Of a stretch of 52,592 nt of DNA, positions 3,466-10,745 are shown one piece after another. The position numbers and the translations under genes were made by a program. Under the pieces are notes generated by a model. It saw only the letters and a program-made list of their open reading frames with translations, ran no database searches and was not told the DNA's origin. Numbering within the stretch: the first letter of the stretch is position 1; the number at the start of each line of letters is the position of its first letter. The stretch is from Acidobacteriota bacterium (lineage in GTDB: Bacteria; Acidobacteriota; Vicinamibacteria; Vicinamibacterales; CAVVIG01), in the NCBI GenBank assembly GCA_017883165.1, contig JADGOC010000009.1:1-52592 (forward strand), written 5' to 3'.

Positions 3466-5643
3466 TTACTTAATGAACAGCATCTCTCGATACGTGGCGA
3501 GCGGCCACGTCCCATGCGGGACCATCAGCTCGAGCTGATCGCCGGTCTCGCGCAGCGCCCCCATCGCCGGAATCACGACGTCTCGGAAGTGCTTGGCGTG
3601 TTTTTCAGCCGAACCGTTGCCGTCGTGATCGAGCGCGTGCGCCAGCTTGTCGGTACGCCGCCGCAACTCGTCCACGTGCCTGGTCAGCACGTCGAGCGTC
3701 TTCTTGCCTTCGATCGATTTGCCACCCGCCGCCTTGACTGCCGCGACGCTCTCGGCGACGCGCGTCTGGTAGTCGAGCGCCGCCGGCAGGATGTAGCGGT
3801 TGGCCATCAGCACCATCAGCTGACCCTCGACGTTGACCGTCTTGTTGTAGGTCTCGACCATGATCTCGTACCGCGCGTGCAGCTCGCGGTCGTTGAGAAT
3901 CTTGTACTTCTCGAACATGGCCACGACCGGCGGCGCGACCAGCTGCGGCAGCGCGTCGACCGTGTTCTTCAGGTTCAGCAGGCCGCGCTTGCCGGCCTCC
4001 TTCTCCCATTCCTTCGAGTAGCCGTTGCCGTTGAAGATGATCCGCTTGTTCTCTTTGATCACCTTCGGCAGCAGATCCGCCACCGCCTGCTGCAGCGACT
4101 TGCCGCCCTTTACCGCCTTCTCGAGCTCGGTCGCCATGTAGTCCAGCGATTCGGTGACCGCGACGTTCAGCGCGACGTTGGGATAGCCGATGCTCTGGTT
4201 CGCCGACACGGCGCGGAACTCGAACTTGTTACCGGTGAAAGCGAACGGACTCGTGCGGTTGCGGTCGCCCGCGTCGCGCGGGAGCTTCGGCAGCACGAGG
4301 ACGCCCGTGTCGAGCTCGCCGCCGTGCTTGGTCGATTTCGCGCCGCCCTTCTCGATTTGCTCGAAGATGTCGGTCAGCATGTCGCCGAGGAAGATCGACA
4401 GAATCGCCGGCGGCGCTTCGTTCGCCCCGAGCCGGTGATCGTTGCCGGCGCTCGCGATGCTGGCCCTGAGCAGCCCCTGCCACTTGTTCACGGCGCGGAT
4501 AACCGCGGCGCAGAACACCAGAAACTGCATGTTGTCGTGCGGGCTCGCGCCCGGCCCGAGCAGATTGTTCCCCTCGCCGTCGCTCATCGACCAGTTGAGG
4601 TGCTTGCCCGAGCCGTTTACGCCAGCGAACGGCTTTTCGTGAAGGAGGCACGCCAGGCCGAACTTGGGCGCCGACCGCTTGAGCGTTTCCATCACCATCA
4701 TCTGATGGTCGGTCGCGACGTTCGCGTTCTCGAACACCGGCGCGATCTCGTACTGGCTCGGTGCCACTTCGTTGTGCCGCGTCTTCACTGGCACGCCGAC
4801 CTTGTACAACTCCCCCTCGACTTCCGACATGAACGCCATCACGCGATCGGGGATCGCGCCGAAGTACTGATCCTCGAGCTCCTGCCCCTTGGGCGGCTTC
4901 GCGCCGAAAAGCGTCCGCCCCGCGTTGATGAGATCGGGCCGCGACAGGTAGAAATAGCGATCGATCAGGAAATATTCCTGCTCCGGCCCGCACGTGGTGA
5001 TGACGCGCTCGGCCGTCGAGCCGAAGAGCTTCAGGATCCGCACCGCCTGCTTCGACAGCGCTTCCATCGAGCGCAAGAGCGGCGTCTTCTTGTCGAGCGC
5101 TTCGCCCGTCCAGCTCACAAACGCCGTGGGGATGACGAGCGTCGTCGAATTGCCGCTCTTCAGCAGCCACGGCGGGCTCGTCGGATCCCAGGCCGTGTAG
5201 CCGCGCGCCTCGAAGGTGGACCGCATGCCGCCCGAAGGAAAACTCGACGCGTCCGGCTCGCCCCTGATCAATTCCTTGCCGGAGAATTCCGCGACCGCCT
5301 TGCCGTCGCCGGTCGGCGCCAGAAACGAATCGTGCTTTTCCGCCGTGATGCCGGTGAGCGGCTGAAACCAGTGCGTGTAATGGGTGGCGCCATGCTCGAC
5401 CGCCCACTCCTTCATCGCGGACGCGACCGCGTCGGCGACGGAATGGTCGAGCGCCTCGCCGTGCGTGATCGTCCGCCGCAGCGCGTGATAGGCCGGCTTG
5501 GGAAGGCGCGTCTGCTGCACCGCGTCGCTGAATACGAGGCTGCCGAACGATTCGGCCGCCCGCGACGCGCGCGGCTCCTTCGCTTCCGTCACCGACCAGT
5601 CGCGAATCGCGCTAATCGCCTCCCCCAACACCGTCGAACCCAT
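3466..5643 (-). CDS. glnN: Type III glutamine synthetase
   Basis: ATP-dependent synthesis of glutamine from glutamate and ammonia in the cytoplasm. The length of 725 residues is typical of the large GSIII (GlnN) class and far exceeds GSI (about 470). Recognisable blocks are the N-terminal [17 protein letters not shown], then [20 protein letters not shown] (near 85), EQEYFLID in the middle, the ATP/glutamate-binding [13 protein letters not shown] (near 336-350), and [15 protein letters not shown] enzymes are not known to be adenylylated. The ATG at 5643 is supported by the strong ribosome site AAAGGGGG (5649-5656), five bases upstream. A promoter with a candidate operator lies just upstream (see 5691-5738). 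The gene is followed by a perfect hairpin and probably forms its own transcript. Confidence 0.95.
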
Positions 5644-7456: not shown

Positions 7457-8011
7457 GTGTCACTCCTGAAGCAGCTGCGCATGCTCGCGGCCACGGCCGC
7501 GGCGGCGGCAGCCGGAGTCGTCACGATGGCGTCAGGAAGAAGCGAGCGGGGCGACGTGAAGCTGCGGCCTGGTGATCTCGCGCCTGATTTCACGCTCACC
7601 GGATCCGACGGCCGCACGTATCATCTGCGCGAGATCGTCGGGCACGGACATGGCGTGGTGATCGCGTGGTTTCCAAAGGCGTTCACGGGCGGTTGAACGG
7701 CCGAGTGCCAATCGCTCGGGACGAGCGGTCATGATTTGCAGCGGTTCAACGTGCGATACTTTGGAGCGAGCGTCGATTCCGCCGAGACCAATGCGCGGTT
7801 TGCGCAATCGCTCGGCATCACCTATCCGATCCTGGGTGATCCGTCCAAATCCGTGGCGCGCGCGTACGGGGTGCTCGGCGCCAGCGGCTACGCTTCGCGC
7901 TGGACGTTTTACATCGGTGCCGACGGCCGCATCGTCGACATCGATACGCATGTTCGTGCGGCATCACACGGCCGCGACATCGTCGCGAAGCTGAGCGAAT
8001 TGGGTATGTAA
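7457..8011 (+). CDS. Peroxiredoxin, predicted selenoprotein (in-frame UGA = Sec)
   Basis: An AhpC/TSA-family peroxiredoxin of 184 residues if the TGA at 7694-7696 is read as selenocysteine. Upstream the frame gives DLAPDFTLTGSDGRTYHL and AWFPKAFTGG. Immediately downstream, in the same frame, it gives TAECQSLGTSG and then a complete thioredoxin-fold remainder (YFGASVD, FAQSLGITYPILGD, ASRWTFYIGADG) ending at TAA. The UGA falls exactly on the peroxidatic Cys of the family motif PxxxTxxC (PKAFTGG-Sec, residue 80); a second Cys at residue 84 could resolve it. A stem-loop fitting a bacterial SECIS follows (7711-7729). The N-terminus is Ala-rich and hydrophobic (MLAATAAAAAAGVV), so export or membrane anchoring is possible. 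The GTG at 7457 has GGAAA upstream. It is followed after one base by the DUF349 gene. A standard gene caller would split it in two. SelA, SelB, SelC and SelD are not in this window. Confidence 0.85.
7711..7729 (+). promoter_or_regulatory. Candidate bacterial SECIS stem-loop
   Basis: Just inside the coding sequence after the UGA, bases 7711-7718 pair with 7722-7729: A-U, one U-G wobble, then the six-pair stem CGCTCG/CGAGCG, closed by the loop GGA (7719-7721). The loop begins 22 bases after the UGA. Bacterial SECIS elements lie within the coding region, with the apical loop roughly 16-37 bases from UGA and a G in the first two loop positions. Both hold here. A competing fold (CCGAG 7701-7705 with CTCGG 7715-7719) is also possible. 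Confidence 0.6.
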
Positions 8012-8012
8012 C

Positions 8013-10745
8013 GTGGCCATGGCACTACTCGACCGATTCAAAGCGCAACCTCGTCACAAGCATCCCGATCCCGCCGTGCGGCTGGCGTTTGTCGCCGAGC
8101 TGCCGATCGACGAGCGCGAACAGCTCGCGGCGATGGCGCGCGAGGACGAGGAGCCGCGCGTGCGGCGCGCGGCGACGGCGAAGCTGATGGATCCGGCGGC
8201 GCTGGCGGGCGTCGCGCGCGACGACCGCGACGAAGCCGTGCGAAGCCAGGCGGTCGACATGCTGCGCGACATCGCGCTCGAGGCGTTCGAGGGCGTCGGC
8301 GAGGCCGAGAGCCTCGCGGCCGTCGAGGCGCTGGCCTCGCTCGGCGACCCGAAGACGCTGGCCCTCGTCGCCAAGAGCGCGGCGCGTGAGGGGGTGGCGC
8401 GGGCGGCGCTCACGAGCGTCAGCGACGTGCGGGCGCTCGGGTCGATTGCGCGCCACGGGTCGTTCGAGGCGCTGCGCGCGGCGGCGCTCGACCGCGTGCA
8501 GGATCACAGCGAGGTCCTCGCCGTCGCGATGAACAGCGATTTCAAGGACACGGCGCTCGCGGCGCTCGACCGTGTGTCCAGCCGCGAGGATCTCGAGCGC
8601 GTGGCGGAGCGCGCGAAGAACAAGAGTGCCGTCAAACGCGCGCGCGCCTCCGTCCGCGATCTGGACGCGCGGGCCGCCGCCGAAGCCGCGGCCGCCGCGA
8701 CAGTTGAGCCGCCGGCGCCCGATCCGCGGGACGCCGTTCGCGCGCAGATCGAAGAGGCGTCGCTCGCCGTGCAACGCGTGCAGGACGCGGCTCGTGCGGA
8801 AGCCGCGCGCGCGCAAGAGGCCGAGCGGATCCTGGCGAACGCCGAAGCCGCGCGCCAGCGCGAGGAGCGGAAGGCCGCCGAGCGCATGCGCATCGAGGCC
8901 GACGCGCAGAAAGAGAGCGAACGCCGTCACGGGCGTCTCGCCGAGCTCGCCGCCGAAGGGGACGCCGCCGCGGGCGACGCCGACCTCGCGTCGGCGCGCC
9001 GCCGGTTGACCGTCGCCCGGCGTGAGTGGAAGGACGTCACCGACGGCATCAGCGCGATCGATCCGGCCCTGGCCGAGCGTTTTGCGGCCGCCGAGGCGAG
9101 ACTGACCGCGCGCGACACCGAGGCGCACGAAACCGACGCGCGCCTTCGCCGCGAGGCGCTGGCGCGGTTGCAGCAGCTCGCGGCGCGCGTCGATCCGCTC
9201 GCGGCCAAAGCCGACCTGTCGCTCAAGGCGGGCGAGCGGGCGCTGCACGACGTGCGCGCGGCGCTCGCCGATGTGCCGTCACTGCCGTCCAAACGCGAGT
9301 ACGACGACCTCGTCCGCCGGCTGAAGGCGGCGCAGTCGGCGCTGACGCCGAAGGTACAGGAGCTGCGCGAAGCCGAAGAATGGAAGCGTTTCGCGAACGC
9401 CGGCGTGCAGGAACAGCTCTGCGCACGCATGGAAGCGCTGCGCGCGCTCGAGGATCCCGAGGAGCTCGCCAAAGAGATCCGCCAACTCCAGGAGCAGTGG
9501 CGTCAGGTCGCCGACGTGCCTCGCGCGCAGGGCGAAGCGCTCTGGCGGCGCTTCAAGGTGGCGCACGACGAGGTGTGGCCGCGCTGCGAAGCGCACTTCG
9601 CGGCGCAGGCCGAAGCCCGCGCGGCCAGTCTCGTGGCCAAGGTGGCCTTGTGCGAGCGCGCCGAAGCGTTGTCCGAGTCCAGGAACTGGATTCAGACGGC
9701 CGACGAGATCAAGCGTCTGCAAGCCGAGTGGAAGACGATCGGTCCGGTCACCCGCGGCCAGGAAAAGGCCATCTGGGACCGCTTCCGCGTTGCCTGCGAT
9801 CGCTTCTTCACGCGGCGCCACGAAGATCTCGTCCAGCGCAAGACGATGTGGGCGGAGAATTACGGGAAGAAAGAAGCGCTGGCGGTGCAAGCCGAAGCGC
9901 TCGCGCAGTCGACGGATTGGGAAGCCGCCGCCTCCGGGATCAAGCGGCTCCAGGCGGAGTGGAAGACGATCGGTCCGGTGAAGAAGACGCGTTCGGAAGC
10001 GATCTGGCAGCGCTTTCGCGGTGCATGCGATCTGTTCTTCAGCCGCTACGCGCAGCGCCATGACATCGCCAAAGCCGAACGGGTGGCGGCGCGCGAAGCG
10101 ATCTGCGCGGAGCTGGAGGCGCTGGCAGTCGTCAGTCCTCAGTCGTCCGACGATACTCCGGGGTCGCCAGTCGACAGTTCAGAGTCACCAGTCACCAGCC
10201 AGCAAGCACCTGTCGATCTGGGCCTCACCGTTCGCGGCCTTCGCTCGAAGTGGCAGCAGGAGATTGCGGCGCGCGGCGTCGATCGCGATCGCGCGATCGC
10301 GCTCGACGAGCGGTTTCAAGCGGCGTTCAACGGCGTGCTTGCGCGGTGGCCGGCTGCCTTCGCCGGCACCGAGCTCGATCCCAACACGAATCGCACGCGC
10401 ATGGAAGCGCTCGTCAAGCGGGTCGAGGATCTCGCCGCCTCGCTCCTCGGCGCGCCTGGCGCCGCGGCCGACACGGCGCTCTCGCCGACCACACGTCTGG
10501 CCTCGATGCTCAAGGAAGCGCTCGCCGCCAACACGATTGGCGGAAAGGTGGACCAGGAGAGCCGGTGGCGCGCCGCGCAGGAAGACGTGCGTCAGGCGCA
10601 GGCGAGCTGGGCGCGGATTGGCCCGGTCGCCGAAGAGACGCGCCGCGCGTTCGCCGATCGGTTTGCCCGCGCGTGCCGGCGGATTAACGAAGGGGCTGGA
10701 CGGGCAGGAGCGGCTGGAAAGGCGGCCCGTCCCGCCCTCACTTGA
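8013..10745 (+). CDS. DUF349 repeat protein with HEAT-like N-terminus
   Basis: A 910-residue cytoplasmic protein of unknown biochemical role. Residues 1-210 consist of short alpha-helical HEAT-like units (for example DPKTLALVAKSAAREGVARA). Residues about 215-330 are a highly charged coiled coil rich in Ala, Glu and Arg. At least two clear DUF349 repeats follow, near residues 565-600 and 641-676, each with RLQAEWKTIGPV and a following WxRFRxACD.FF motif. Weaker copies lie on either side. The start is GTG 8013 or ATG 8019, one base after the peroxiredoxin stop, so the two genes are probably co-transcribed. Residues about 705-732 come from a low-complexity DNA insertion (see 10128-10212). The 3' end overlaps the convergent FKBP gene by eight bases. 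Confidence 0.8.
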   Translation: MAMALLDRFKAQPRHKHPDPAVRLAFVAELPIDEREQLAAMAREDEEPRVRRAATAKLMDPAALAGVARDDRDEAVRSQAVDMLRDIALEAFEGVGEAESLAAVEALASLGDPKTLALVAKSAAREGVARAALTSVSDVRALGSIARHGSFEALRAAALDRVQDHSEVLAVAMNSDFKDTALAALDRVSSREDLERVAERAKNKSAVKRARASVRDLDARAAAEAAAAATVEPPAPDPRDAVRAQIEEASLAVQRVQDAARAEAARAQEAERILANAEAARQREERKAAERMRIEADAQKESERRHGRLAELAAEGDAAAGDADLASARRRLTVARREWKDVTDGISAIDPALAERFAAAEARLTARDTEAHETDARLRREALARLQQLAARVDPLAAKADLSLKAGERALHDVRAALADVPSLPSKREYDDLVRRLKAAQSALTPKVQELREAEEWKRFANAGVQEQLCARMEALRALEDPEELAKEIRQLQEQWRQVADVPRAQGEALWRRFKVAHDEVWPRCEAHFAAQAEARAASLVAKVALCERAEALSESRNWIQTADEIKRLQAEWKTIGPVTRGQEKAIWDRFRVACDRFFTRRHEDLVQRKTMWAENYGKKEALAVQAEALAQSTDWEAAASGIKRLQAEWKTIGPVKKTRSEAIWQRFRGACDLFFSRYAQRHDIAKAERVAAREAICAELEALAVVSPQSSDDTPGSPVDSSESPVTSQQAPVDLGLTVRGLRSKWQQEIAARGVDRDRAIALDERFQAAFNGVLARWPAAFAGTELDPNTNRTRMEALVKRVEDLAASLLGAPGAAADTALSPTTRLASMLKEALAANTIGGKVDQESRWRAAQEDVRQAQASWARIGPVAEETRRAFADRFARACRRINEGAGRAGAAGKAARPALT
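10128..10212. repeat. CAGTC-type low-complexity insertion within the DUF349 gene
   Basis: A run of degenerate AGTC/CAGT units (GTCGTCAGTCCTCAGTCGTC and later CACCAGTCACCAGCC) interrupts otherwise GC-rich, Ala/Glu-coding DNA. It encodes a Ser/Pro/Asp/Thr linker, VVSPQSSDDTPGSPVDSSES, between DUF349 units. The base and amino-acid composition differ sharply from the flanks. It looks like an in-frame simple-sequence expansion. Confidence 0.6.
10694..10732. repeat. Hairpin at convergent 3' ends, related to the glnN hairpin
   Basis: The inverted repeat GGACGGGC (10698-10705) and GCCCGTCC (10725-10732) lies at the very end of the DUF349 gene, just ahead of the convergent FKBP stop. The 16 bases at 10694-10709 match the arm of the glnN hairpin (3425-3440) at 15 positions, and GGCTGGA recurs at 10712-10718. 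It may serve as a bidirectional terminator and may be a second dispersed repeat family. Confidence 0.5.

Follow-up and report, generated by a model that had tools for sequence, protein, structure and literature searches.

We identified a gene at positions 7457–8011 (forward strand) that almost certainly encodes a selenocysteine (Sec) peroxiredoxin – a BCP/AhpE-like member of the AhpC/TSA family in which Sec, predicted to be inserted at an in-frame UGA via a SECIS hairpin, would be the peroxidatic residue. The window in which the gene lies (52,592 nucleotides) is contig 23 of a 4.24-Mb, 334-contig draft genome of an Acidobacteriota bacterium that is rated 100% complete. A sequence-only reading of the window had taken the UGA at the peroxidatic cysteine position to be Sec. 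This proposal is supported by the location of the UGA at a catalytic column otherwise occupied only by Cys, by SECIS behaviour across homologues and by a complete Sec machinery in the genome, all of which are apparent from sequence.

A peroxiredoxin reading frame with one internal UGA

Translation of the region from the GTG at 7457 to the TAA ending at 8011 identified TGA 7694–7696 as the sole break in the frame. With the TGA read through, the 184-residue product matches Pfam AhpC-TSA (PF00578; E 9.5e-27, 93.8 bits against a cut-off of 26) and also Redoxin, and close homologues align from residue 1–7 onwards. The TGA corresponds to residue 80 and falls at the peroxidatic position of PKAFTGG-U-TAEC, an instance of the PxxxTxxC catalytic motif. 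The sequence-only reading had described exactly this: a continuous peroxiredoxin frame broken only at the catalytic position and intact thereafter to a normal TAA. The frame is indeed open to its stop at 8011, and the part downstream of the TGA is conserved.

Consistent with membership in the AhpC/TSA family, the product combines the AhpC-TSA domain with PxxxTxxC/U and an arginine, and P73, T77, U/C80 and R148 are conserved among homologues. A second cysteine, Cys84 (codon 7706–7708), is present in 108 of 110 aligned rows and, given the resulting U-x3-C arrangement, is predicted to be the resolving residue. The N-terminal hydrophobic segment noticed in the initial reading (7457–7555) is a feature of the homologue family, found in 92 of 112 members by a simple hydropathy criterion. 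AlphaFold confidence is low there, and the segment suggests membrane anchoring or export.

Gene calling under table 11 ends the open reading frame at TGA 7694–7696 and restarts the remainder at TTG 7736, which yields the two fragments anticipated for automated annotation. Because such calling stops at UGA, Sec peroxiredoxins are easily missed in environmental bacteria.

A DUF349 repeat protein (8013–10745, forward strand; PF03993, E 9.3e-60) adjoins the peroxiredoxin gene downstream. The next gene had been placed one base after the TAA; an open reading frame does begin there with a GTG at 8013, but its likely start is instead ATG 8019, since orthologues align from MALLDRF. This gene follows the peroxiredoxin gene in the close orthologous clade, in Sec and Cys members alike, and the adjacency may reflect operon structure. 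Within the examined flanks of other homologues it was not found downstream, save at greater distance in one (L035). Because the adjacency is limited to this one clade and is independent of Sec or Cys, it amounts to a conserved neighbourhood and not to evidence of shared function, and we rejected as unproven the functional coupling to DUF349 that had been proposed.

Selenium machinery and the catalytic column

We found all four components of the Sec machinery in the same genome – SelA (544 bits), SelB (345 bits), SelD (340 bits) and tRNA-Sec (62 bits) – each above its curated cut-off. ARAGORN likewise reported a tRNA-SeC with anticodon tca. The SelD of this genome (L018 1390–2475, reverse strand; G000:C46) is itself a selenoprotein candidate, with a single in-frame TGA in ACAGUASK, which we take to be the customary Sec site of SelD.

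We asked how the catalytic column is occupied elsewhere using 112 homologous copies from genome collections, some of which are near-duplicates of one another across two collections. The column contains TGA in 59 copies, TGC in 47 and TGT in 6, with no other codon represented. Each Sec copy has one internal stop, the TGA at this column, and the Cys copies have none. The UGA therefore aligns exactly with a column that is otherwise Cys, an in-frame UGA at a redox-active Cys position flanked on either side by homologous sequence. Among named orthologues, the nearest come from Acidobacteria MAGs, and the family extends across Acidobacteriota, Planctomycetota and Verrucomicrobiota; a plasmid search returned distant homologues only (<60% identity). 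Sec and Cys sequences are intermixed on the tree, with 14 label changes, at least nine of them forced by well-supported branches.

The presence of SelA tracks the presence of TGA copies. Across the class, counting from the listed matches, SelA exceeded its cut-off in 90 of 100 TGA-bearing genomes and in 13 of 27 Cys-only genomes (Fisher p 8e-6). Several of the ten TGA-bearing genomes lacking an above-cut-off SelA (G036, G105, G108, G162 and six others) are incomplete or contain SelA fragments only, though G105 is rated 100% complete.

These comparisons bear on two alternatives to Sec insertion. The first is that a TGC or TGT has mutated, or been misread, to TGA, splitting what is really a Cys peroxiredoxin. 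A single base separates these codons, and the assembly is a 334-contig draft. However, the equivalent TGA is present at the same column in 59 homologous copies, drawn from independent assemblies and several phyla. Sequence past the TGA is conserved to a normal stop, the genome encodes the full Sec machinery, and the SECIS covariation described below is specific to TGA copies. We consider a sequencing error or pseudogene to be refuted by the comparative data, and its residual probability to be negligible.

The second alternative is that the UGA is read through as some other amino acid, by a suppressor tRNA or through general UGA reassignment. Its sole support is that the frame is open once the TGA is treated as a residue. 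Yet TGA substitutes only for Cys and only at one catalytic column, neighbouring genes are normal under table 11, and the genome encodes a tRNA-Sec with a tca anticodon alongside SelA, SelB and SelD. We rejected general reassignment on this comparative evidence, and regard readthrough as another amino acid as having virtually no chance of being correct.

The same genome encodes a second Sec peroxiredoxin, a 53% identical paralogue with a TGA in PKAFTGG-U-TAEC (G000:C165:31759–32217; L133 at about 3700–4233). In two other loci a Cys and a Sec paralogue adjoin on one contig (L052, 809–1351 and 1504–1986; L102, 4920–5447 and 5609–6133).

A SECIS hairpin conserved among Sec members

Bacterial SECIS elements are characterized by a position just downstream of the UGA and by a G within the first two nucleotides of the loop. 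The sequence-only reading had recognized a stem-loop at 7711–7729, with loop GGA, 22 bases after the UGA. The stem-loop exists, and 22 nt is the distance from UGA 7694–7696 to the start of the apical loop, with the stem itself starting at 14 nt. It can be drawn as 8 bp closing the GGA loop or as 7 bp with the 5-nt loop of the homologue family. Folded alone, the 19-nt hairpin is stable (–9.7 kcal/mol, z –3.6). Longer windows (42–86 nt) showed no unusual stability (z about –0.4 to –1.1), and an Rfam search with the hairpin returned a chance match but no relevant family. Since the longer windows are unexceptional, folding energy alone would not prove a SECIS; the comparative evidence does.

For this comparison we defined a fixed pairing register, counting the T of TGA as position 0, in which positions 17–23 pair with positions 29–35 across a 5-nt loop. 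Each of the 52 distinct TGA sequences can make six or more of the 7 pairs, with 45 making all 7, and all of them have G as the second base of the loop. Such pairing is mostly absent from the 48 distinct Cys sequences, of which one has 7 pairs and three have 6, with most having 3–5. Among TGA sequences, four of the stem pairs vary on both sides (e.g., GC/AU, CG/UA and CG/GC). Stem covariation was 0.403 against 0.186 ± 0.019 in shuffled alignments (0 of 500 shuffles as high), and 27 doubly changed cells were observed in the stem against 5.3 in shuffles. Pairing was 98% in the fixed register and 31–67% when the partner was slid.

To allow for the intermixing of Sec and Cys sequences on the tree, we compared Sec/Cys pairs that are phylogenetically independent. 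On average, the stem accompanies TGA in 7.7 of 9 such pairs, and it never shows the opposite association (median p 0.008). The hairpin at 7711–7729 – just downstream of the UGA, with a loop G and conserved among Sec members – thus behaves as a SECIS across homologues, as judged from their sequences. One Cys-type homologue (L062, around 4929–5438) has TGC at the catalytic column together with an almost intact SECIS-like stem (GTCATTCCGTGAGAGTGGC), which is likely a relic of a recent Sec-to-Cys change.

Predicted mechanism and relationship to known peroxiredoxins

We propose that SelB, with Sec-tRNA-Sec (UCA anticodon), would bind the SECIS hairpin 14 nt downstream of UGA 7694–7696, so that translation continues with Sec as residue 80 and does not terminate. 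The Sec80 selenolate would then attack the peroxide O–O bond, producing a selenenic acid. Cys84, four residues on, probably resolves Sec80 to form an intramolecular selenenylsulfide, and reduction by a thioredoxin-like donor may follow, by analogy with BCP-type enzymes. In the AlphaFold model (pLDDT 88), a single helix (residues 78–89) holds both Sec80 and Cys84, and the top PDB fold matches are BCP and AhpE peroxidases.

A different function is nonetheless conceivable, in which Sec is inserted but the protein acts as a disulfide oxidoreductase or peroxide sensor. The classical BCP of E. coli has its Cys pair spaced x4, and the U-x3-C spacing with conserved Cys84 departs from it. Some Prx-like Sec proteins are also listed as thiol:disulfide oxidoreductases (PMC13188914). 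Against this, the PxxxTxxU motif is complete, and the motif and Arg148, which sits where the catalytic arginine is expected, are invariant or nearly so among homologues; the best structural matches are likewise peroxidases. We consider an oxidoreductase or sensor unlikely, and favour a peroxidase.

As the initial reading had stated, Sec peroxiredoxins are already known in some bacteria. TxxU peroxiredoxin is catalogued as a selenoprotein family with experimental support (PMC13188914); a 2006 study counted Sec peroxiredoxin 12 times and tabulated Sec-to-Cys events (PMC1794560), and a 2016 survey placed it in 78 organisms (PMC5029168). The gene described here is a new example of a known selenoprotein type, and not a new system.

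Comparison with characterized relatives places the protein near several families. With Sec peroxiredoxins such as PrxU of Eubacterium acidaminophilum (PF00578, TxxU; PMC13188914, PMC1794560) it has in common the AhpC/TSA fold, PxxxTxxU and a UGA with downstream SECIS. Its score against the NCBIfam PrxU model (NF040737) is weak, however – 36.3 bits against a curated cut-off of 270 – implying a different subfamily, and, unlike PrxU, it has an N-terminal hydrophobic segment and a U-x3-C pair. PrxU is from Clostridia, whereas the present protein is from Acidobacteriota and relatives. The best NCBIfam match is the equivalog model for BCP/PrxQ, a thioredoxin-dependent thiol peroxidase (NF006960, PRK09437), at 67 bits, below its cut-off of 140, and the protein resembles BCP/PrxQ in fold and in having a second Cys nearby in the same helix, though with the x3 spacing noted above. 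The best PDB sequence match is the 1-Cys peroxiredoxin AhpE of Mycobacterium tuberculosis (4x1u/1xvw, E 2.4e-12), also a top fold match, which shares FPxAFTGxC but has Cys in place of Sec and, in the alignment, no Cys at the Cys84 position.

We tentatively suggest, at somewhat less than even confidence, that the homologues constitute a peroxiredoxin subfamily not previously described, whose members would be anchored or exported, would pair a catalytic Sec/Cys with a resolving Cys at x3 spacing, toggle repeatedly between Sec and Cys across three phyla and occur in some genomes as side-by-side Sec and Cys paralogues. In the open-access literature, which we covered in part, we found no description of an x3-spaced, N-terminally hydrophobic subfamily or of how widely it occurs in Acidobacteriota, Planctomycetota and Verrucomicrobiota; we make no claim of first description. 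If the suggestion is correct, this toggling subfamily would lend itself, as a natural system, to measuring why selenium is retained in some bacteria and lost in others. Sec and Cys have been exchanged many times, each time with the SECIS following, and the resulting matched pairs allow a test of what selenium contributes to peroxide reduction.

One further homologue, a Cys-type sequence from a MAG labelled Klebsiella pneumoniae (L071), is nested among Verrucomicrobiota sequences, which suggests a mislabelled bin.
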